This document shows positions 9,801 through 52,600 of a stretch of 64,000 nucleotides of DNA, one piece after another. Position 1 is the first letter of the stretch, and every line of letters starts with the position of its first letter. The stretch is from Axinella damicornis. Taxonomy: Eukaryota > Porifera > Demospongiae > Axinellida > Axinellidae. A program made the translations under genes and the position numbers. The stretch spans positions 18,032,508-18,096,507 of the forward strand of contig OZ007509.1 of assembly GCA_963931865.1 (NCBI GenBank), in the 5' to 3' direction. A model generated the notes under the pieces. That model was given only the letters and a program-made list of their open reading frames with translations, made no database searches and had not been told where the DNA came from.

Positions 9801-12800
9801 GCGTTTTGAATCAGATCAGTAGGCATCAGAATGCATAACAGATCTGTATCAGTTCAGCATTCATTCTGAATCAGACAAGTATCAAAACATCTGTATCTTA
9901 CTTGTGCCCAAAATATCAGAGTCAGACTGTAAAGCCATTCCGATACGGATCCGTAACATGATCTGATTCAGATCCGTTACAGTCCTGATTCAGAATGAAG
10001 CTTTTTGTTGTGTAGCTCTCTACAGAAACCCTTTCACTACGCCGACACTAATTTACACTACAAAGTGAAAACGCATACCATGCGTCATCTAGTTGCACGT
10101 GATCAGTTAGCCGCATAAAATGGCCGACTTCACTGAGCTTTACAAACTAGCTTCGTTCCGGAAGGTTATTTGCGGTAGGAGAAGGCTGTCTTTGAGCTCT
10201 ATAGGTTAAGGATGTTGTGCTAAGTGTGTAATAAAATGCGGGAAAAGAAAATCCGAAGGCAGACTGAGTTACAGCTGCAGAGAGCCATCCTGTACAGCCA
10301 GTGTGAGAGCAGTGTATTGCCATACTGGACAAACGGTAAGTCAGATCCTTTCCCGCATTTTATCCCATGGAGCTGGGTACTATTACTAGCGTTATGCAGA
10401 AAACAGTAGCTCTCAGGCAGCTAAAAACCTTCCGGACTTTGGCAAATAGCTTAGTAATATATGGTCATAAACGGGGGTGTGGTGTCTCACGTGAGCAAGG
10501 GGCGTGGCCAAAATGGAAGCCACATAAAAACACTTGGATTATAGGTTCTCTTGGTCCAGGTTGGGTCTTGATATCTCTTTCAGTTGCTGAGATATAGGCT
10601 AACAAACATCGATCAAAATCTGGTCAAATTTTGGTGTACTCAGTCCTTAACTACGCTGTGGACCAACAAGACTCCTCGCATCGCGAGGTTAAGGATGTTG
10701 TGCTAAGTGTGTAATAAAATGCGGGAAAAGAAAATCCGAAGGCAGACTTTTTGGCAGCAGGCGCATGTTTGAGCTGAAGTTTGCTGCAGAAGTCAGTGAC
10801 ACACAGGGTACATAGCTACTTGCAAGCAAGCTTTGCCCTTCTACAGGTAGCAACATCGTTCCGTGTCTAGGTCTGAGCAAACAAAACCTGGGGGGCCTAG
10901 TACCTGACGTTCACAGTGGCCATAATAGGGACCCGGTGTACTATTATTACCCCGCGCGCGCATGCGCGAAGCGGGGTTAAGCAATCGGTTTTGTCCGTCA
11001 GTCAGTCAGTCGTCTGTCAGTCGTCTGTCAGGCGAAGAAAATTGAAATCTCGCCACATAGACCCTCATAAACCATCGAAATGGAGTCAAACAATAGCAAA
11101 TAGCAAAAAACTGCTCTATGTGTACCTGACTGAAGTCAAGTCGCTCCGTTTCGCTGTATTTCGGCTATTTCCTACTTTTCATAACTATTCATAACATTGG
11201 CTCCACCTCTTCGTGACCTCAGAGTCCCATCAAGAACAGGACACACGGTGCAATTGGAAACTTCATGCTTCGAGATGACCGCTAGGAAACAGTGTTTTCT
11301 CACGATCTATGTACTTCACAGGCATCGTGGCTATTGTTTCGGCTGTTTTTTCCAGCTATTTCCTATTATTCGTAACATTTGGCTCCACCTCTCCAGTATA
11401 TACGGTAAGCGGTCACTCCCACACCTTGGATATGGCCATACACGAACACAGTATATGCGATAGTACCTGTTCAATGTGCATCGGCAGAGATGTCACGTCG
11501 ATTGTAGCTGCACTGCATGCATCCTGGCCTGTAGACGTTCATGACAGCGCGGGGTATGTGTTCTATGAACACCTCTAGTTATGTAATAGCAATGGAATCA
11601 GGAAGTGTAAAATAGCACAAGGCGAAGCCGAGTGCTATTTACTTCCTGACTGCATTGCGAGTGCTATTAATCAAAATACCACGGTAGACCACATCCTAGC
11701 TACATCACAGTGTTTTTCTTAGTGTTGCTGTTGGATGTGTTGGTGAAACTTGGAGCGTCACTCAACACGCAGCAGGCACGGTTGGTAGCAAGCCTAAGCT
11801 CTAGCGACTCGGGCCACGGTCACGGCACGAGCGTCGCTTCATGCAACAGGCATGGCTGTGGTTGTCGGTCCTGGTTCAGTACAGGTTTGGAACTAGGGCC
11901 TGAACGAATGTACCAACATTCGAACGTTCGTTCGAATCCCGAACGTTCGAAGCGGCAAAATTTATGTTCGAACCTATTTCTAATCAACGCACACCCCACG
12001 TGCTACCTCAAGCTAGCTGCAAGATGGCGGAGACTGAGGCTGCGCTGTTGGTGGCGTTCTCGATAGCGATGCAGGTAGCTCTGCTCGTGTGATAACAGGA
12101 CACAAGACAGTGAAGTGCAAGTTGTGCAACAAAAGTTACACTTACCATGGAGGGACGACCAACTTACACGACCACCTGAACCGCGTACTAGCAACGAATA
12201 AAAGACGAAATCGAAACACGATCCAACTCTGAATGCTTTTATCGCCCGATCGAAGTGCCCCACCAGTCGTGCGAAGCTAATCACCGACCGAATTGCCGAT
12301 ATGGTCGCGCAAGATCTTTGTTATGTAATATCTTGATTCTACCGAATGTTGTTCGAATGTTAGTTACCGAACATTCGAATGGGGGGATTCCCCATTCGTT
12401 CAGGCCCTATTTGGAACCAGAGCGTAGCTATGTACATCTCAACAGCGCGTGCGAGCAGCTCGTCTATGGAGTATCCGCTCGTGAAACTTACTTTGGAAGG
12501 GCAAAAGAGGCAGTCGCTTTCTCCGCTTCAGTCGTGCTCCCTTTTTCAACCCTACAACTGAAGGTAAGCTGTAAGCTGCCTAGCAACCAGGTTCTGTAAC
12601 GGCGCTACTAAGCAAAGTATTCACCAATCAACTTTCTATTACAGCAGTACCTCAAGAAAAAGTGTAATACCAATCTGATTGGTTATATCAGATTAGTGCA
12701 TACCATGTAGTATAGAACTATTGTATTGTAGGTTTTATTCCTGGATGTGATGGAACAGTGCATACCCAGGTCTGTGCTCCCAGCAAGAAAGAACTTAACT

Positions 12801-15800
12801 TGGCTAACCAAAGAGATTGTACAATTGATCAGGAAGAGAAACTATCTCTTCAGGAAAGCTCATCGCAGTGGTAACACAGAGGATCACTTGAAGTTTAGGC
12901 ATGCCAGAAAGAGAGTTGTGGCAGAGCTCAGGTTTGCAAAGAGGAGATTTCTCACTAATCTACACCCTCATAATCAACGGGAATTTTGGAAGGTAGTGAA
13001 ATCTCTAACTCCGAAAGAGAACTCCATTCCGACTCTGTCTAGTGAAAACACCATTGCAACCACCAATCTAGAAAAGGCTTGCCTTCTGAATGTCGCATTT
13101 ACAAACTGCTTCAATCACTCACTTCCTGAATTAAATGTGGCTGATCTTCTGAAAGCTGTTCCTCATGAATGTCCTGACAACCTTATGTGCATTGAAGATG
13201 AAGTCTATGAGCTCTTATGCTCCCTAGATCCAACAAAAGCTAATGGTCATGATGACATATCCACTCGAATGCTTAAGGAGACTGCTCTGAGCATTACCCC
13301 TGCAGTGACTCAACTATTTAATATCTCCATTCGACTTGGAGACTACCTGACGAGTGGAAAATTGCTCGAGTTACACCAATTCCCAAGTCACGTAACCATT
13401 CTGTTCCTGGTAACTATCGCCCAATATCATTACTCTCAGTGCTGAGCAAACTCCTCGAAATGCACATTCGGAACCTCCTAATTGATCATCTTAAGGACCA
13501 TTACCCTCTCTCTGCTCACCAGTGGGGATTCACTCAGGGCAAGTCCACAACGGGGGCTCTGTTAGATGCGACTGATCAATGGCACAGACAACTCGACTTG
13601 GGCCTAGATATCTGCTGTGTATTATTTGATTACAGCAAGGCCTTTGACTCAGTTCCCCATAGACCCTTACTGCAAAAGCTGAAAAACTGCAATGTTCAAC
13701 CACATATTCTCAGATGGATCACGCACTACCTTTGTAAGAGAAGTCAGTATGTGTGTGTGAATGGTTCATCTTCAGGTGTTTTGCCTGTGACTTCTGGAGT
13801 CCCACAAGGGTCAGTCCTTGGGCCATTTCTGTTCATTTTCTACATTGACGACATTACAATGGTTCCATTGTCAGACAGCACCATGTCTCTTTATGCTGAT
13901 GATCTGGTGCTTTATCGCCCTATCCACTCAGCAACTGATTACCATCTGTTACAAATAGATATTGATAACATATGTGTATAGTCTGACGATAACCATCTGA
14001 AGTTTAATGGTCGAAAGTGCAAATATATGATCATCACCAGGAGAAAGCAGCCCTCCCTCCCTGTTACACTTCTGAAGATTAAGCAAACATGTTTGGAGAG
14101 GGTGCACTCCTACAGATACCTTGGAGTATGGCTCACTTCGTCCTTAATCTGGTCTATGCAAGTCAGTGAAGTATGTAAAAAAGCAAGGCAACAAGTGGGT
14201 ATTCTATACCGAAAATTCTATCCATCTGCAAATTCTTCATCACTCTTGCAACTGTATCTGGCCTACATCCGACCGCATCTGGAATACACTGTACCTGTAT
14301 GGGACCCCCATCAACGGGGACTTATCAGCTCCCTGGAGAGAGTGCAGAAGTTCGCACTTAAGGTGTGTACTAAAAGCTGGAGTTCTGGATACGAGTCTTT
14401 GCTTCAGTCATGCAACCTGCCTACTCTTGCCTGCAGCGCTATCTGAAACTGTGCCTCTTTTATAAAGTTGTAAATGGACAGCTTACCTTCCCAGTTGTAC
14501 CTATTGAGCCAAGGCCAGACTCCTCAGAAACACCAGTACACTAGCCCTTGAAAGACCAGTAACACGCTCAATTGCCTATCAATCCTCATTTTTTCCGGAT
14601 ACAATTGCCCTATGGAACAGCTTACCCCCATCTGTACAAAACTGTCAGTCATTGGATTCTTTTAAACAGACTATATTATGTCACACATTAAATACCTCAC
14701 CTATACCTATTACTTAGATCATAGATAATTGGACTTCTGTCTGGGTGCATTATCATGTTAGCAATTGCTATTCATGTACCCTTGCATTGTTGCAAAATTG
14801 TTATAGAAAAAAAATCATAGAGTCAGTAGACTCTATATGTAGGGATACAACGGACACGCAATTGAAGCTAATACAAAAAAATCTTCCCAAATCTCTCCAA
14901 ATCTCAAAAACGGGCAGCAAATAAGCCTTTATGACAACTTACTATTCGTCTTCGAGTGTTTTCCTGGCCCAGAAGACTCCCAGTGTCGTGAATAACCGTC
15001 GCGAAAGTACCGCGCCAAAAAGTCGACAAACCACCAAATCGGTTTTCTTCTTCTTCTTCTTCTTCTTCTTCTTCTTCTTCTTCTTCTTCTTTCTTCAGAC
15101 GGGCTAGTCATATCTTTCCACATCATACATGTATTATGTGGAAAGATATGTAAGATGGTGTTGTACACTGAACTGTTTTATGCCATCATCCCTGCTTGTT
15201 TTCATACTTTTTGCTGTTCTGTTATCCCTACATCTCCATAGCTTTCAGTACCACTGTGACACTATTCTCGGTATAGCTACTGCATGCAGGTTAGGTAGCT
15301 ACATGAACATCAGATGGAAACTATTCACAGTCCAATTGTTTCGCCATGTTCCGATAGATTTAGTGTGCGGTTCTTCGGTTTTATGACTGGTCGATGCTCT
15401 ATGTCTTGCAGTGCACTGTTGTTATGAACGAAGAGTGGGATTCTCGGGGTCCAGGTACAGGAGCAGTTGAAGGAGGAGGCACGGCCAGCGAAAGTTCTTC
15501 GAACAGTGAGTGATTGTCGTCAGTGGAAGTTCTTCGAACATTGAGTCATTGTCGGTAGTTTATAGAGACCCTGCCAAGGCTAACGCTGCCATGCCGTGCA
15601 GTAGCGCCCTTCGCTGTATCCATTGAAGAAGTAGACTCGTGAGTGGTCTCCGTCCCTGTTGTAGCCATTCAAGGAGTACATGGTTTACGATTCCTGTCTA
15701 GCTACTCATTGAGTGATATTTAGCTTCCAACTTCGTTGTTGAGCGAGCACGTGTAAATTATCATGACGCAAGGAACTTTCGGTTATTGGCATAAGCGTTT

Positions 15801-23818: not shown

Positions 23819-23912
23819 AATTGGCAGTGGTGGTTGGTCTACGGAGGGGGTGACTACAGTTGAGGTGACGCAGGATGGGAACGACACAGTGGTGCAGTGC
23901 AGTAGCATCACT
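23819..23912 (+). CDS. Adhesion GPCR exon with WSTEG
   Basis: Encodes IGSGGWSTEGVTTVEV, then GNDTVVQCSSIT. WSTEG and the following cysteine lead into the GPS. The usual cysteine after WSTEG is valine here. The acceptor is CTTGCCCCAG. The donor GT belongs to the end of an inverted-repeat element. Confidence 0.7.
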
Positions 23913-24300
23913 GTAAAACGAGAAGGGTTGTTTTAACCAGGCTGTGGTCACCTCAGTTGCATCTCAGGGCCCTTGCATGGTGACCAAGGAATGAGCACAC
24001 AAGTGCATCCTATTAGTAGCTATCCAAACAGGAAAATCTAATAGAACAGCTGCACTTCCACACAATGTGCATTCAAGCAGATCATTTACACTGCTTAATC
24101 ACTATAGGTCCTCCAACAGACATACAGATGGGTAAACAATTAAGCTAAGTCACGTACCTATAATTACGAAATGTTAGAAGTGAGGCTACACAACATTTGT
24201 GGTTGTGGATACATTCTTCAACCACCACAGTGGAGGAGGCACTGAGATGCAACTAGGGTGACCAGAGTCTGGTTAAAACAACCCTTCTCATTTTAAAGTG
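23909..24300. mobile_element. Inverted-repeat MITE forming a GPCR intron (copy 1)
   Basis: Left end CACTGTAAAACGAGAAGGGT, right end reverse complement CACTTTAAAATGAGAAGGGT; arms of about 60 bp match, including CAC(C)TCAGTTGCATCTCAG. The predicted intron is 23913-24298, so the element fills it and its ends give GT and AG. Confidence 0.75.
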
Positions 24301-24349
24301 CACCCACCTCACCAGTTTTGCTGTGCTTGTGAACGTGGCAGGAGCACCA
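24299..24349 (+). CDS. Adhesion GPCR GPS exon
   Basis: Encodes CTHLTSFAVLVNVAGAP, the GPCR proteolysis site, where cleavage normally falls between HL and T or S. The acceptor is TTTTAAAG, inside the element end, and the donor is GTGAGT. Phase 0 on both sides. Confidence 0.8.
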
Positions 24350-24692
24350 GTGAGTACATGAATTATTTTGTTTTAGTAATAATTACCAGGGCCAAGTTCT
24401 TGAAGTCATTTGGTGCAGGGGAGAAGCAAAGGCCCAGTTTCAGCACCGTTGTTCTGTTCAAGTAAACAAAGACGGCTCTATTCTTATTTCTGATCGTAAC
24501 AATAATCGAATTCAGGTTTTTTGAACACTGTGTAGCCAGAACATACCCACTTAACGTGGCTTGAGCCTCTATAGTGCAACTGCTGTTGTAAGGGCTTATA
24601 CTTGATGTGTAGGGGTTAGAAGTTGTGTGATACTGTAATGCAGGGAGACATATGCCCCCTTTCTGAAATCTACACTTTTGTTCCACCGCCAG

Positions 24693-24792
24693 GTGGACAG
24701 CCTTCCCCTGAGCATTGTCTCCTACATTGGACTGGGGATTTCACTGGCATGCCTGCTACTTTACCATCCATCATCTTCTTTCTGTCACTGGG
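24693..24792 (+). CDS. Adhesion GPCR TM1 exon
   Basis: Encodes VDSLPLSIVSYIGLGISLAC, then LLL, the tethered-agonist-to-TM1 region. After LLL the frame reads YHPSSS instead of the usual TII-type end. One extra base in TTT and one in CC would explain this, so it is either decay or a sequencing error. The acceptor is CCGCCAG and the donor GTAAGC. Confidence 0.75.
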
Positions 24793-24851
24793 GTAAGCAA
24801 AGGGAGAAGGGTACTGTACCAAGTCTCCTTACAGAATGCATAATGGTCCAG

Positions 24852-25051
24852 GATTTAGTGATGGCCTGTCACATTCCACCTCTCGAAAAAAGCTAAGAAA
24901 CAAGGAGAAATGCCATTAACCAGGCTCAGTCCCATCCCATCCCTAAATTCTACATTTTTCAACGGGATGGGACTGAGCCTGGTTAATGGCATTTCTCCTT
25001 GTTTCTTAGCTTTTTCGAGAGGTGGAATGTGACAGGCCATCACTAAATCCT
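24852..25051. repeat. 200-bp palindrome (long hairpin) between GPCR exons
   Basis: GGATTTAGTGATGGCCTGTC at the left is matched by its exact inverse ending CATCACTAAATCC at the right. The arms are close to 85-90 bp and nearly perfect, around a short loop near 24955. It could be a MITE or a hairpin RNA source. Confidence 0.85.
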
Positions 25052-25445
25052 TTTTAATTTTTTGGAGAAATTTTTTTGCCTCTAGTGACTGTACGATTGA
25101 CCAAGATTATATAGCAACATAATCAAATGTGCAATAGCTCAATACTGTGGCCAAGAAATATGTCCAAGGCACCAGGTGCATGTTCACATGTACTCTGGCT
25201 GACATCATGGTGCTGATCAATCTGCGTAGTGATCTATTCTTAACTACCAGGAGCGCATAATGACTTCCCTCTGTACCTTCCTGTAAGTTTACTAGAGATT
25301 ACTAAAGATTACAGAAGATTACTACGTACCTTAGTAATAGTAATAGCCTAGAGAGTGCCACACACTTTGGGAAGTTCCATTGTTGCGCTCAATTGCTTTA
25401 ATTGTGATGGCAATTTTTCAGTTTTCTCTTTCATTTCAAATCCAG

Positions 25446-25509
25446 CTGCTGGTTGTCTTCTGGGAATGCCATCTGGACATTTGTAGCACCCATGCTAGCT
25501 GTTGTTTTG
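25446..25509 (+). CDS. Adhesion GPCR TM5 exon
   Basis: Encodes CWLSSGNAIWTFVAPMLAVV, then L, between AAATCCAG and GTAAGC. CWLS..N.IW.F..P is the extracellular loop 2 to TM5 signature of the family. Phase 2 in, phase 0 out. The open frame continues past the donor to 25710 without family similarity. Confidence 0.75.
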
Positions 25510-25799
25510 GTAAGCTACTACAGTCATGGAAAGTTTAATTATCTTGATGGAAATTGTTTAGATCATCAGTGTGTTCCTGATACTGGTCCTTGTCAGTGTG
25601 TGCAGAGTCCGTTGGAAGCGTATATCACAAATGAAAGAGAAGGGAAAACGTGTAGACCTTGTTGTGTAAGCGAAATGTTTGAGTCAAGTATAACTTACGC
25701 GTACAAGTAAGATCTTGTTTTTGTGATGTTAACATTGCCTGTATACTATATGCATGTATATACAAAGTACATACTTCTTCTTCCTCTAGTTCTGTGGTA

Positions 25800-26797
25800 C
25801 ACTGTAAAAAGAGAAGGGCTATATTTCAACCGGGCTGTAGTCACCTCAGTTGCATCTCATGCAGTGCTACCATGGTGAATGAGCACTCAAGTGCAGTCTA
25901 CTTTGATCCTATTACCGTAATTTGGGAAAGTTTCGTTGTTAAAATATTTTCGTAGACAGAGACGGCTACGAAAATTAAACGCACGAAAATATTTCGACAG
26001 CTAATTATTAAAACAACGATAATTTTACGGTACGAACTCTGATTGCGAAACAGTTCAACGACGTCGAAGCTAGAAGGACGGTCTTCCCGATCCCAGGGGG
26101 TCGTTATCTTCTTGTCTGCCCTCGCAGGCACTCGCTCTTCCGAACAAGGAAGTGGAGAAGGTGACGAGCGATATGATACAGGCAAGCAGCGTGGTCAATA
26201 CAGGAGGTGAGACGAACTATTTTTGAGCGTTGCGTGGCTCCCTCTCACATATCAGCATTTCTCCAGCTGCTGCCTCCCATATTTCTTTGTACACATGGTA
26301 GCCTCGAATACAACAGACTGTTTGAACTCCTCCATGCCCGATCGCTCGAATTTCTTGGCGTCGCAAATGTACACGTGTTAAAAATGTTTCGTGTTAAAAA
26401 ATTTTCGTTGCCCGGATGGGCTACGAAAATTTTTTAACACGAAAATATTTCACATGAAATATTTTCAACTCGAATAATTCTCAATTTACGGTAGTAGCTA
26501 TTGGATAGTAATAGGTCAAGTTCCTTAGTTCCAGGTAACTAGGAGAAGTATAGGATACCTGAACTTCCAAACAATGTGCATTCAAGCAGATCATTTACAC
26601 TGCTTGACCACTATAGGTTCTCCAACAGACATACAGATGGGTAAACAATTAAGCTAATTAAGTCACGTACCCATAGTTACGAAAAGTTAGAAGTGAAGCT
26701 ACATGACATTTGTGGCTGTGCACCCATTCTTTGAGGCACTGAGATGCAACTATGGTGACCAGAGTCTGGTTAAAGCAAACCTTCTCTTATTACAGTG
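25800..26797. mobile_element. Same MITE family, copy 2, with nested insert
   Basis: Left end CACTGTAAAAAGAGAAGGGC, right end reverse complement CACTGTAATAAGAGAAGGTT. TA flanks both sides (25798-25799 and 26798-26799). Interior parts ACAATGTGCATTCAAGCAGA and CAGACATACAGATGGGTAAA match copy 1. A second element (25915-26491) lies inside. The acceptor of the TM6 exon is in its right end. Confidence 0.75.
25915..26491. mobile_element. TA-type MITE nested in copy 2
   Basis: Ends CCGTAATTTG and, reverse complemented, CCGTAAATTG, flanked by TA at 25913-25914 and 26492-26493. Copy 1 has the uninterrupted CCTATTAGTAGCTAT. The interior carries TTTTCGT/ACGAAAA hairpins like those at 46.58-47.05 kb. Confidence 0.8.
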
Positions 26798-26916
26798 TAA
26801 TGTCATCATTCATCCTTCTCCCTCTGCTTGGGATGACCTGGGTCCTGGGGCTATTCGCAGTGAATCAAAACACGCTTTTGTTTGCATGGCTCTTCACCAT
26901 CTTCAACTCACTGCAG
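26796..26916 (+). CDS. Adhesion GPCR TM6-TM7 exon
   Basis: Encodes FILLPLLGMTWVLGLFAV for TM6 and FAWLFTIFNSLQ for the start of TM7. Both are strong family signatures. The acceptor (TTATTACAG) is the right end of the element at 25800-26797. The donor GTACAA is weak. Confidence 0.8.
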
Positions 26917-29305: not shown

Positions 29306-30812
29306 GTATGATTCTCAAGTCTAAGTCATGTTGTGAACTGCCCAGAATGATACATGGTACTGGATCAGAGACTAAAACTACAACTAAACTAATATTTAAA
29401 TCTCCCCCAAAAGGTGGTTACTTGAACTAAAAGAGCTTTTACTAACCCTTTTAAGATTTAGTAATTGAAACTAAAACTAAACTAAACAATGCGTCTTTTA
29501 CCTAATTATACTAAACTAGTAGAGTTTTAGACAACATTGCTCGATAGCTACTGGATCAGAGACTTCCACAAAACACTCAGCACACACAGCTTACCTCGTT
29601 TCTTTGGATTCTCCATTGAAAGCTCCAGACTGTTGTTCCTCGTGCAACAAATTTACAACAGCAGCTACTAGGTATAGCTAGCTTCCCTTTTATAGGCTAA
29701 ATTTTTAGTAACGAGACCGTGAAGTGTCTGCTATAGTATACATTGTATGTGCAAACAGTACTGGTGCGGTCTAGGGAGGAGCTATATTTATTGCCGAGTG
29801 CCTTGAGGCAACTAATCGTGCAGTGTAGTCACGTCGCGTTAATCCATCACACTTCCATCACACAGATGATCCCGAGGCTATTCAACGGACGATTGCAAAG
29901 AAAATTGACATGACTGGTTCACTCAAACAAATCTGCCATCGTACGCTTTCCATAATATGTATCCCACCTACTATAGAAGGGGAGGGAGTGTATGAGCCAT
30001 ATTTCCCTCCCTCAGAGTATCAGTGAGGATCTGCCACACTTAGCTAGCTATCCCACAATGACACTGATACAGCTATAGTTGAGAGTTCAAATGCACACAT
30101 GGAGGTTTGTATATTCCTTGATGCTATTTAAGAAACAGAGAGCTAGTTAGACAGTTGCTCTGCATGTACAGCTTACAAAGTGATATACTAATGAGAGAAT
30201 GCTGGATGCACTACAGTAAATAGTATACTGGGCAACAACAAGCACACAAACAGCAATACCTCACTGTTCACTATCCTCCCCTAAGAGCACTATTTTAATT
30301 CCAATGTGCCGAGGATTAGTTGCACCAGAGGCAAAACTTTCAAGGGCATCAACGAGTGACCTCTGTTTGTCCAGTGTAGGAAGCAGACATTGTGCTTTGA
30401 AATACATAATGTGCAAGCAGATAAATTGGATCCAGGGCTATAGCAATCCCAATAGTTACGGTCTACATATGCTGAGAGCTCGCACCCTCCAAGGAGACAT
30501 GGTTTCTGGGGGTTACATTCTTCATCCATGAAACACTTCTCAACTTTGCGAAACCTATGCAGTCTGATATATGCTTTCTGCCAACCATCAGCCCAACAAG
30601 GATCTGAGACTATGATCATATGGCAGAGCTCAGTATTCCTATGTGCTTTTATCAGAGTGCTGACGTCAAGTGCAACTGCTCAATGTCATTAGATATGGCA
30701 CATATGGACATTATGTGTGGAGGGGAAAAGTGGTTCTGCAAGCGAAGGTGATCAAATCAGACAACGAGTTGTCATATGCCAGTCAGAAGAATTATATTGT
30801 GCATGCACAGCA

Positions 30813-31073
30813 AGAGTGCAATGGAAGAGTGCAATGGAAGAGTGCAATGGAAGAGTGCAATGGAAGAGTGCAATGGAAGAGTGCAATGGAAGAGTGCAAT
30901 GGAAGAGTGCAATGGAAGAGTGCAATGGAAGAGTGCAATGGAAGAGTGCAGTGGAAGAGTGCAGTGGAAGAGTGCAATGGAAGAGTGCAATGGAAGAGTG
31001 CAGTGGAAGAGTGCAATGGAAGAGTGCAATGGAAGAGTGCAATGGAAGAGTGCAATGGAAGAGTGCAATGGAA
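30813..31073. repeat. 13-bp minisatellite, ~20 copies
   Basis: Unit GAGTGCAATGGAA, with a few GCAGTGG variants. Because 13 is not a multiple of 3 and the unit has no stop, all three plus frames and the minus frames stay open. The long frames here are therefore artefacts. It lies about 290 bp beyond the stop codon of receptor gene B. Confidence 0.95.
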
Positions 31074-31360
31074 ATGCAGTGCTGATGAAATTGAAGTCGT
31101 TATTGACTTTTGTGGTGTTCTGTGAGACTAACTACAAACAAAGGCCCAATGACTATGTAATCCATAGCACCGCAATATACGTTAACCACAGAAATCTTAG
31201 CTCAGATGCAGTGAACAACCAACAGAATACTTCTGATCAGAACTCAAACCATTACACTATGCTGCTACACATAACTATGTAGTGTACTAGTTGTAAGATC
31301 ACATCACATGCAAAGTCACGCATATTCAGTAGAACACAATCGCTCATAGCAACTCTTGGC

Positions 31361-40660: not shown

Positions 40661-43600
40661 CAGACGCGATGTGACTACGCTGCACGATTAGTTGCCTCGC
40701 GCTAAGGCGCTCGGCAACAAGTACAGCCATTGCTTACATACAGCTAATAATGACAGGAAGAGTAAAGGGGAAGAATGAGGCACAGCTTCTCTAGTGATAT
40801 ATACTTACAGCATTAGAAGTTGGGTGGTAGCATTCAAAAGACCCTCTGGCAGCTCTGTCAACTGGTTGCCATCAAGATACCTGGAGAATGAGAGATCAAA
40901 CAAGCCAGTGAACCTGTACAATGCACCTGTACACAAAGACATTATCAGAACTTGCAACAGGAAGAGAGATACTGCAGTCACGAGCTCGTTATTAGGCACA
41001 TGCGCCCACATCTCCACAGCAACAAAATATGCATCTATAAGTGAGATGTGCTTAATTTCGAATGACATGTTCAACCCTTCACCTTTGGCAAAGAAAATTC
41101 AGAACAATGCTCTTTGTTTTTTCTTTGGGCTGGGAAGAGCTGCCCCAATAGCTGCACTAATTGGGGATTCAGGTTGGCCTCCCATTCAAATGCAGCTACG
41201 GTATGACATGCTTAAATAGTGGCACCACATAGGATGCTTGCCACTTGATAGGATTCCTAAGAAGGTATTTTGCTGGAATACAATTTAGCTGATAAAGGTA
41301 AGAAGACCTGGTCCTTCCAGAGAAGAAAAACTCTAGCTAACTTCAACAGTGACCTCTTGTTTGAGAGTCGAGAACATTTCTGCGACTCACTTTGGGGAGA
41401 ACTAATTAAGAATAACGTAGTGACCTGGAGGCAGGAGGTGAACAGGGCGGATTCACAGGAATCGGCAAGTGATGGAAAGTTGGCAATCTTCAGGATGGTC
41501 AAGGGCCAACCTCGGTCAGAACCATATGTAAGAGCCAGGCTAACAGTTGAGTCTGCAGGGTGATTGCCGGCCTGCATGAGGGCAGGCTGTCAACCACTCC
41601 AAATCGAACTCGGACGCTACACCTTATCCAAGACTCCATACGAATACTGCATATGCAGATTATGTCACAAAGAAGTTGAATCTCAAGAACACTTCTTAAT
41701 TCTTAACTCGATGTCAGCCACTGGAACACCTACGTGCACTGCTATGTGATAAAGTGAGTAAACAAAATGCTGAATTTTGGGTTAGTCCTTCATTTAAGAG
41801 TCACTAAAGATGCTGACAATGCAGCTGTTTTTATATTAGTAATAACTAGTCTATCTGTGATTTCTGCTGGTCTCCCTTGGTCTCTAGTGGTCTCCCTTGG
41901 TCTCTAGTGGTCTCCCTTGGTCTCCAGTGGTCTCCAGTGGTCTCCAGCAGTCTCGCCTGGTCTGCAGGGATCTCTGATGGTCTCCAGCAGTCTCTGCAGG
42001 TCTCTGTTGGTCTCCAGTGGTCTCCCTTGGTCTCCAGTGGTCTCCCTTGGTCTCTAGTGGTCTCCCATGGTCTCCAGTGGTCTCGCCTGGTCTCCAGGGG
42101 TCTCTGCTGGTTTCCAGCAGGCTCTGCTGGTCTCCACCAGTCTCCAACAGTCTCTACTGGTCTCCATGTAGTCTCTGCTGGTCTCCAGAGGTCTCCAATG
42201 GTCTCCAATGATACGTCTCTGCTGGTCTCCAGCAGTCTCTGCAGGTCTCTGATGGTCTCTGTTGGTCTTCAGTGGTCTCCCTTGGTCTCCAGTGGTCTCG
42301 CCTGGTCTCCAGGGGTCTCTGATAGTCTCCAGCAGTCTCTGATGGTCTCTAGCAGTCTCCAGCAGTCCCCAGCAGTCTCCAACAGTCTCCAACAGTCTCC
42401 AACAGTCTCTGCTGGTCTCTGCCCATCTCCAGCAGTATCTGCAGTCTCTGCAGTAGTCTCTGCTGGTCTCTGCTGGTCTCCATTAGTCTCTGAGGTCTCC
42501 TTCAGTCTCCGCTGGTCTCCATGTAGTCCCTGCTGGTCTCTGCTGGTCTCCAGCAGTCTCTGCTGGTCTCTGATGGTATCCAGTAGTCTCTGCTGGTCTC
42601 TGATGGTATCCAGTAGTCTCTGCAGAGACTGCTGGAGACCAGCAGACACCAGCAGAGACTACTGGAGACAGCAGAGACCAGCAGAGACTGTTGGAGACTG
42701 CTGGAGACCATCAGAGACTGCTGGAGACCATCAGAGACCTGCAGAGACTGTTGGAGACCAGCAGACACCAGCAGATACCCCTGGAGACCAGACGAGACCG
42801 CTGGAGACCACTAGAGACCAAGGGAGACCACTGGAGACCAAGGGAGACCACTGAAGACGTACCAAGGGAGACCACTAGAGACCAAGGGAGACCAGCAAAA
42901 ACACTGATAGACTATACAGTTATTACTAATATAAAAACAGCTGCATTGTCAGCATCTTTCGTGACTCTTAAATGAAGGACTAACCGAATTTTGCAACTAC
43001 TCAGATCACAGAAAATGTTTATGCCTACTCCAACCCAGATTTTTTCTACTTATAAATTAATCTATCAAAATTATGTGTACACTTTGTACCAATCTTATCT
43101 ATAACAAGTAATAAAAAACATTTGAAAATGTAACAGGATGTAGGGATACCAGAACGGCAAAAAGTAAGGAAACAAGGCAGGGATGATCGCACAAAACAGT
43201 GAAGTATACAACCCCCCTACAGAGATCTTTTTACATATACGTGTATAATGAAAAAAGATATGTAGGGGGATTGTATACTTCACTGTTTTGTGCGATCATC
43301 CCTACCTTGTTTCCTTACTTTTTGCCGTTCTGGTATCCCTACATCCTGTTACATTTTCAAATGTTTTTTATTACTTGTTTAAGTCATTTTTTTCAGCAGC
43401 AGCGCATGCAATTTGCCATCACAGAGCAGAAGTCGGTGTCCTCACAAGTAGTAGGAGCTCTTGCTTTGGTATATGGACAATATTGACTCCGGTATTCACA
43501 CTGCCAGCATTGGCTAAAGAATCAGACCCAAGTCAACCCTTTTCTGGATGGATACCGTAGGCAGTATCCCTGTCTGAAGACCATAATATTAGCTATACCA

Positions 43601-49600: not shown

Positions 49601-52600
49601 GTGCCTATAAGTGAGATGCACTTAAATTCGAATGACAAGCCTCAAATAGGATCCATAGGATCGAAAATGGCAGGGTTTCTCATGACATCTGGTACAGAGG
49701 AAGACAGCCCGGTGAAACCCAAAGCTAAGCGACAATGTTCAAGACCTTCACTTCATGTTAGGTATGCTGCATTAAAATAACAATGCATTATCTAATTTCA
49801 GAGAGTACATTTTGTTCCTTGTAGCTAATTGGTTATTGATTGTGATCCCCTCCGATCTGTTTTAGGAGATCCTTATTTCACGATGAGGATGAGGAGGATG
49901 AATTGGATGGCTTCCAGAGGTACAGGTGCTTGAAATTTAAATGGGGTTGTAGTTTACTACAACCCCCCAAAACATGAACATGCAGTGGTACGTCCATTAT
50001 GGGACACTTCTGTGTATTTTCAGTTTGATAGGCATGTCCACTGAATGATGCAAAAGAAATGTTACTGAATCACGTCAATTATAATTGCATTACTGCATTG
50101 AATTACTATGTTAGATTACATACCAGGCGGTGTTATATGACGTGATCACTGATCTTGCATGCTTACTTTTCAGAGGTGCAGACACAGACTCTGACACATC
50201 TGATGCAGATTCTGATGCAGATATAGAATACTGCAACAACGCAGAACAACCCCAAACGTCCGATTTTTGGAGATCCCCAATCACCCTGGCTGAAACTATC
50301 ATTCGGATAATTCCGAATCCAGTGGATCCCAGTAGGATCTGCAAAATGCAACCCCAGACCGTTGAATGCAATGCAACGTTTGTTGTCGACATGACAAAAC
50401 TGAAGGATTCTCGAGACCTTACTGCTGATGCTCATGGAGCATGGATACCAGGTGGAAAGCCACGAGTACATTTCTGTGTGGAGAGTAATAAGGCAGGGAA
50501 GATCCTCCGGGTGTCATGCACTGAGACAACATTCTCACAAGTCGTGTAACTTATGTAATTGTTAATACACAGTTTGACATTGTGTGTGACATTGTGTCCA
50601 TACACTACAGCTGGCATACTTTCCCAAAGTTCGGGAGACAAGATGTCTGTCTATACACTTCATCGGTACTACAGCAAGCACTCCACAGCTTCAGATTTCA
50701 GCAGCAGGACTGTGGCCACATTGAAAGGTCAGGAGGATGCTGTGTTAGCAAAAATTATTATGAAGTTCAAATTGACTACATTATCAAGGTGATCAATAAT
50801 ATTGTCCAGACTTAAAAATCGTTTTCCACACTCCAGTGATTCACCTGTGAGGTATCATCATGCACTCTTGTGTGTGTATGTAATGCTGCCGAGCAGTATA
50901 GAATGCGCAGAGTATGACGTTCGTATATTGAGACACAAACAACGTCACTTCATTTCTTATGCTCTTCCATGCATGCAGTAGCTGCAGCAGAGTATTTTAT
51001 CAGAATACGGTTTAGTTGTTTCTTGCTAAGGTCCAGTAGGTCCCTTGCAGCATGCAGCCCAGTCTGTTGATTTTGGTCTCACCTCTGAATTCGCATCTGA
51101 GGAACCATTCTTTCTCAGTGGGCTAGAACCTGCATGTGTTTCGAGGAGCCAAAGTTAATCTGAGCCTGCAGGGTGATTGCCCCATTTAAAATAAAACAAT
51201 GCTGCTGTAAGCAGCCTTTGTTTGTTAAAATTAATGAGGCCTTGGGGAAGTGTTTCACCATCTCACTGATAGTGACTGATAGTTGAAATCTGATATGGCT
51301 AATCAGTTTGCAAAAATGGTGAACAGTCAGCAGGTAGCACCTCTCAAGGATGTGAATTAGCACACCTGTCTTACACAGATTGCAGCACCTCTTTGAGAGA
51401 GACCTCACCTGTCTGTCTACCCTTTGTCTACCTTTGCCTCCAGACAACTGGTTGTAGTCTGAGAAATCCTAAGATTTCTATGTATAATTTATTTATGCAG
51501 GTCCTGATGGTGAATTGCAGAACTTTGCTGTGGTTCAGTACTCCTTCAAGGGGGAGGAGCACTCAATTCAGATACGTAGCCACAGAAACACTCACCATGG
51601 CAAGCCGTACATCTGAACCTTCCCGAGCACCATGCAACACCTGAAGAAGTTATCCACTGAGGCCACTCCAAAGCAGGCTGTGTTCATTGCATCTAAAGAG
51701 GAAGGAGGGATACTACGAGCAGAGGCCAGTGGATCACTTCCACGTGACCGTAAACAAGCAACATACTGTCGACAACGAATGAAAGCAGGCCCAGAAGCAT
51801 CATCTTCTGCAACAGCTGAACAGACTTTGTATGATGTAATTTTGATGTGCAAAGAGAGCTAAGGGACAAGGTATGCATTCATTCGTAATGTTAGTGTTGC
51901 TCCTCAAATCTCTGCGGTCTTAGCATTTGACTGGCAGCTAGAGGACATGGCCAGATGCTGCGCCAGTGGATCTCTTGGAGCCAACATAGTTGGTGTGGAT
52001 CCAACATTTGGTTGTGGCGATTTTGACGTCACTGCAACTACATTCCAGCATCCCTTGTTTGTGACCCACAAGAGCGGGACAGCTCCAGTAATGATAGGTC
52101 CACTCTTCATTCACAGACGGAAAAATCTTCAGACGCATACCTCTCCTTCTTCTCATCACTAGTGGGCCTATGTCCTGCTTTAAAAGAATTGGCTGCATTT
52201 GGGACTGATGGAGAGGATGCACTTGTGAAGGCACTTCTCATGCAGTTTCCAAACGCTGTTCACTTGAGGTGCTTTCTTCACTTTAGCCGGAACCTGAAGC
52301 AGAAGATGTCAGAATTAGGAACACCCATCGGTGTCCGCAAGGATATTGTCGAGGACATACTGGGTAATGACAATCAATCCGCACTGGCAAGCAGTACATG
52401 CGACAAAGAGTTTGAGGCAACCTTGGCAGACCTGAAGGATAAGTGGAATCGACTTGAACGAGTTCACACAGGTAAGAAACCTCAGTTTCATGACTGGTTC
52501 GTTAGTTACAAATTGAGGATGTCAAAGGGTGTATGCTAGCCCCACTCAGAGAAGCTAATGGTCTGGGTTCACCCACACCACTAATTCAAATGAATGCATC

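Follow-up and report, generated by a model that had tools for sequence, protein, structure and literature searches.

In maize, dSpm and Ds elements inserted in exons are spliced from sites in their termini; the message is restored imprecisely, and this has been shown on RNA. Elements of the Tc1/mariner group duplicate TA only at their target sites. An introner of Aureococcus is reported to carry both of its splice sites and to leave a scar of 12 bp, of which 4 bp come from the element and 8 bp from the target-site duplication (TSD) (PMC9860276). The introner elements of Amoebophrya were defined from non-canonical introns that were confirmed by RNA (PMC7789003). A CACTA element of soybean is reported to have a 3-bp TSD (PMC2613891). 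The Aureococcus introner with both splice sites was the nearest published behaviour that we found for the locus described below. A partial literature search found no paper on sponge introners by title, and we do not claim that such elements are unpublished.

The window, by which we mean the whole stretch of DNA analysed (64 kb), corresponded to C5:18032508-18096507 in the Axinella damicornis genome of 226 Mb and 120 contigs. It contained an adhesion-GPCR gene interrupted in two of its exons, and the initial annotation had read both interruptions as copies of one inverted-repeat element acting as introns. The features of the gene were as follows.

23820..23908, + strand: GPS exon, 5' part (IGSGGWSTEG...VVQCSS)
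23909..24300, + strand: MITE copy 1, 392 bp from TIR to TIR, inside the GPS exon
24301..24349, + strand: GPS exon, 3' part (THLTSFAVLVNVAGAP)
24693..24793, + strand: TM1 exon, with a 5-nt insertion and a frameshift relative to L059, the nearest paralog
24837..25085, no strand given: region of exon loss; the corresponding 1.75 kb of L059 holds the TM2, TM3-4 and TM4b exons
25447..25509, + strand: TM5a exon, 3 codons shorter than in L059
25562..25665, + strand: TM5b exon, with donor TGT^GTAAGC
25790..25799, + strand: first 10 nt of the TM6 exon, separated from the remainder by copy 2
25800..26797, + strand: MITE copy 2, 998 bp including a nested element, inside the TM6 exon
25915..26491, no strand given: nested second MITE within copy 2, with ends CCGTAA...TTACGG and its own TA duplication
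26798..26916, + strand: remainder of the TM6 exon (VMSSFILLPLLGMTWVLG...)

As the initial annotation had proposed, the two interruptions belonged to one TIR/MITE family, and terminal inverted repeats (TIRs) were found at both. The TIR arms of copy 1 (23909-23971 and 24238-24300) were 63 nt long and 89% complementary, and those of copy 2 (25798-25817 and 26780-26799) were 20 nt long and 95% complementary. Ungapped blocks common to the two copies were 85-93% identical; a gapped alignment, with the nested element removed, gave 74% identity over 441 columns. The closest full-length relative of copy 1 was 97% identical, among at least 112 matches. For the left 111 bases of copy 2 the best near-full relative was 92% identical, and partial matches reached 95%. 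Since copy 1 had closer relatives than copy 2, it looks younger or part of a tighter subfamily.

Empty sites were sought in the paralogs of the gene. Fifteen paralog stretches were fetched, of which nine could be aligned at the copy-1 site and nine at the copy-2 site (L067 and L068, neighbouring stretches of one place, are counted within them). At both sites the exon was uninterrupted in all nine aligned stretches, with neither intron nor element, and at the protein level the GPS exon was unbroken in all 14 loci carrying one. The empty copy-1 site reads GTAGCACCCACC and the filled site GTAGCA-T-[CACTG...AAAGTG]-CACCCACC, with a CA duplication (23906-23907 and 24301-24302) plus one extra T at 23908. 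At the copy-2 site, L059 (C5:18401782-18404965) reads CTGGTAATGTC and the filled site GTGGTA-[CACTG...CAGTG]-TAATGTC, with a TA duplication at 25798-25799 and 26798-26799; the earlier claim that copy 2 sits at a duplicated TA in otherwise continuous TM6 coding sequence was thereby upheld. From the empty sites, the duplications and the relatives of the elements, exonic MITE insertion is judged near certain at both sites. Ancestral introns that the element entered later would be expected to appear at the same positions without it, and the initial annotation had named such introns as evidence against its proposal; none was found among the nine aligned paralog stretches per site. This explanation is scarcely credible, as the exons are uninterrupted and the TSDs lie within coding sequence, and within the Axinella damicornis genome it is refuted by the paralog exons.

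Among named proteins, the relatives ranked highest for the gene's paralog were sponge adhesion GPCRs, from Dysidea avara (45% and 43% identity), Geodia barretti (54% over 65% of the query) and Corticium candelabrum (43%), with five other proteins ranking among or above them. Judged by its sequence, the GPCR copy in the window is a pseudogene by two lesions, the frameshift in TM1 and the loss of the TM2-TM4 exons; the initial annotation had not noted the missing exons. L059 has all three of the TM2, TM3-4 and TM4b exons, and the 64-kb window contained no match to any of them at E <= 0.01. Among the 15 paralog stretches, 14, 13 and 9, respectively, had a match, in some cases a partial one. The surviving exon pieces were 90-100% identical to L059, and no further stop was seen in them. 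Polarised substitutions numbered 6 silent and 4 replacement in the window and 3 silent and 6 replacement in L059, with GPS_R changes possibly misclassed, and did not show relaxed selection in the window copy relative to L059. High identity together with these counts suggests that the decay is recent; the insertions may be older than the loss of the exons, which counts against a reading in which decay came first.

Where the TM2-TM4 exons were lost, little remains besides a 202-bp snapback palindrome (24850-25051) with perfect arms of 41 and 52 nt; similar stretches occur in L059 (5874-6001) and L071 (373-618). In the paralog L060 (C8:10348000-10352000) the GPS, TM1, TM2, TM5 and TM6 exons were matched and TM3-4 and TM4b were not, which suggests that loss of exons may have happened more than once in this GPCR family. 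Elsewhere in the window, 12732-14446 carried a LINE-like reverse transcriptase with broken frames (RVT_1, E 3.5e-30 for 13322-13978), and 52027-52539 a fragment with weak matches to Mutator/MULE transposases (E 0.00028 and 0.00084, below curated cut-offs). Short-unit repeats open in several frames lay at 30664-31282 and 41846-42975 (such as VQWKSAMEECNGR; GDHWRPAETTRD).

To describe the family genome-wide, we searched the 226-Mb genome for the TIR 19-mer with at most one mismatch. There were 203 matches (111 + 92), and the reversed control gave none (0 + 0). Positions were available for the first 100 of the 203 matches. We examined 53 copies, namely 28 with paired ends (27 loci and copy 2), five more, and 20 single ends; L092 was excluded as it had no TIR pair. 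The length of 27 of the 28 paired-end copies was 385-465 bp, which leaves no room for a transposase, and the remaining one was copy 2, at 998 bp with its nested element. Many dispersed copies with TIR ends and without an internal transposase are what is expected of a MITE. Neither an autonomous partner, a transposase source nor a superfamily was found among the copies read; one further TIR pair spanned 2.6 kb.

By common flanks the 53 copies collapsed to 39 independent sites (groups of 9, 2, 4, 2 and 2). The group of nine (L003, L004, L005, L007, L008, L074, L076, L077 and L078) lies at the same point in one larger repeat, with flanks 93-99% identical, and here the MITE is a passenger amplified with its carrier. 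Both ends were available at 20 of the 39 sites (16 from the paired-end set, L094-L096 and L115). A clear TSD was present at 12 of these, TA at 11 and CA at one, and no TSD was found at seven; the ends of L082 matched as AG/AG and were left out of the count as a possible chance match. Seven of the 12 clear-TSD sites had an extra T at one end (A on the other strand), namely copy 1, the L003 group, L006, the L083 group, L088, L089 and L093. The other five had no extra base (copy 2, L090, L094, L096 and L115). Within the L003 group, six of the nine copies had the extra T, two read AT without an extra base and one had no match. A 3-bp, CACTA-like duplication was considered, as blunt alignment gave GCA and GTA, and was rejected because the copies with extra T or A fit a 2-bp TSD better. 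The termini and 3-bp TSD that mark CACTA (En/Spm) elements were thus not found together: the ends were CACTG, but the duplication was 2 bp.

The initial annotation had also suggested a genome search for other exons broken by the same ends, and this yielded a third case.

C6:8558893 to ~8559333: third exonic MITE insertion (L115/L119), in another gene

The host belongs to a family whose similar members form a cluster on C6. An 80-codon reading frame enters the TIR and continues beyond the element, and across ~80 codons on each side the host shows no lesion other than the element. All nine full-length paralog matches (90-97% identity) cross the site unbroken, as does one partial match (1-71) at 96%; weaker matches of 33-44% exist. 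As DNA, the paralog junctions read AATGTGTATGAG in four of five and AATGTATATGAG in one of five, and the duplication is TA. Known exonic sites therefore numbered three of the 39, in an incomplete census that may have missed exons of single-copy genes. These counts support no claim that the element either seeks or avoids exons.

Two screens of the flanks for coding sequence were also run. A codon-usage test was dropped when its positive control, L115, was not among the 22 best. The flanks held 53 reading frames of at least 40 aa, of which 20 were searched against Pfam; none reached a curated cut-off, and four of the 20 had sub-threshold matches. One of the flanks, at L087, had a sub-threshold Death-domain match (E 0.13) in a frame that stops beside the element and does not cross it. 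The Pfam screen is weak, because the true exonic case L115 has no significant Pfam match itself.

In enumerating splice sites, GT was accepted up to 40 nt from the left end, and AG between 40 nt upstream and 25 nt downstream of the right end. GT and AG were present in both copies where the initial annotation had placed them. After splicing at the terminal sites, CACT^GT...AG^TG, a scar of 9 nt would remain at copy 1, keeping the frame and adding ITC; at copy 2 the scar would be 8 nt. At copy 1 there were 36 GT/AG pairs, of which 12 were in frame and open; the terminal pair scored highest, with the predicted product ...VQCSS-ITC-THLTSF. Copy 2 had 32 pairs, eight of them in frame and open, with a best score of 0.4 against 12.0 for the top pair. 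Its terminal pair came second (11.0) and is predicted to give ...VDLVVSVVHL-stop through a frameshift. At the C6 site the terminal pair was the best of 42 (12.2) and shifts the frame, while two pairs kept an open frame, each by way of a GAG that lies 6 nt beyond the end of the element (best score -0.4). The open frame expected of an introner was therefore kept by the terminal sites at one of three exonic insertions.

The initial annotation had further proposed C-SSIT-C at copy 1, where C-x-C is usual, as a possible insertion scar. The paralogs contradict this, reading C-SS-THLT in eight of nine cases and C-NS-THLT in one, so that copy 1 would have added I-T-C rather than SSIT. The second cysteine would itself derive from the insertion.

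As a yardstick we used 92 donors and 54 acceptors from the paralogs' own introns, a set that represents one gene family and whose search was biased to consensus. The element donor, ACT^GTAAAA (score 3.84), was weaker than 98% of the paralog donors. It lacks G at both -1 and +5, a combination seen in none of the 92. Of the paralog acceptors, 96%, 85% and 80% were stronger than those of copy 1, copy 2 and L119, respectively. Copy 1 (23909-24302) has a predicted fold of -164.1 kcal/mol with both ends paired in one stem, compared with a mean of -96.5 (sd 6.1) for 100 shuffles (z -11.1). Such a stem could mask the splice sites or draw them together, and the prediction does not decide which.

An element with both splice sites in its TIRs, removed as an intron and leaving a short scar, would find a precedent in the Aureococcus introners with their 12-bp scar (PMC9860276). 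The rank of the terminal pair, first at copy 1 and the C6 site and second at copy 2, agrees with this, as does the extra T or A at seven of the 12 clear-TSD sites, where 9 nt would be left in frame. We nevertheless consider it improbable for the present element. An 8-nt scar is predicted at the other five sites, including two of the three exonic ones; the donor is weak and the splice sites sit in a predicted long hairpin stem; the GPCR copy, one of two host genes, is a pseudogene; and known exonic sites make up three of the 39, in the incomplete census above. Functional introns at copies 1 and 2 are thus unlikely by these sequence comparisons.

A different use of the element acceptor was also weighed at copy 2, where the TM5b donor (25665) would join 26796, the 10-nt stub would be skipped and the existing intron lengthened. 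The predicted product is in frame and open (VDLVVVMSSFILL), and the TM5b donor scores 6.79 compared with 3.84 for the element donor. However, the element acceptor (7.1) scores lower than the original one in front of the stub (15.2), and TM2-TM4 are absent in any case. Such a half-intron is very improbable.

The observations are explained best, and in our view with high probability, by ordinary exonic MITE insertions with latent splice sites in a decaying adhesion-GPCR duplicate. One non-autonomous TIR DNA transposon would have inserted twice, independently, in exons of the duplicate, both times through a transposase acting in trans and after the split from L059. The insertions may persist because no receptor has to be made from this copy any longer. 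By chance GT and AG lie in the TIR ends, so occasional splicing would be possible; it would be neither needed nor adequate for a protein. Because the gene copy is broken and only one of its two insertions keeps the frame, the interruptions are better regarded as ordinary damage with latent splicing than as new introns. Of the proposal that transposons act here as introns, the exonic insertion of a TIR element thus stood, and the intron function was weakened by the decay, the frame and the weak donor.

There is a slim chance that the family as a whole is a proto-introner, with a donor and an acceptor in its TIRs and an extra-T form that would leave an in-frame scar of 9 nt (6 + 1 + 2). Where the target is TA and the T end leads, the 9-nt scar is free of stops in all three frames, and a host gene would keep its protein three codons longer. 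Without the T a copy would leave 8 nt and shift the frame, and the difference between introner and mutagen would come down to a single base. Were the terminal sites used, intron birth would be caught here at a young stage in an early-branching animal, and one genome would supply the natural controls: one element, scars of 9 and 8 nt, and several uninterrupted paralogs for each. If they are not used, the locus is a caution, as transposons with GT and AG ends in former exons mimic introners until paralogs and frame are checked.

Compared with the known systems, the element resembles the Aureococcus introner in having GT and AG inside its ends and a scar of a few codons, here predicted. It differs in the predicted length of the scar (9 or 8 nt instead of 12 bp) and in the decay of one host gene. 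With the Amoebophrya introner elements it shares inverted repeats at the ends that could bring splice sites together. Like maize dSpm and Ds it is an exonic transposon with terminal splice sites, here predicted, whose use would restore the message imprecisely. Its 2-bp TSD and CACTG ends make it neither a plain Tc1/mariner element nor like the soybean CACTA element. With MITEs it has in common short length, long TIRs, a TSD, many copies, nested copies and no room for a transposase, and we found no essential difference between the two.
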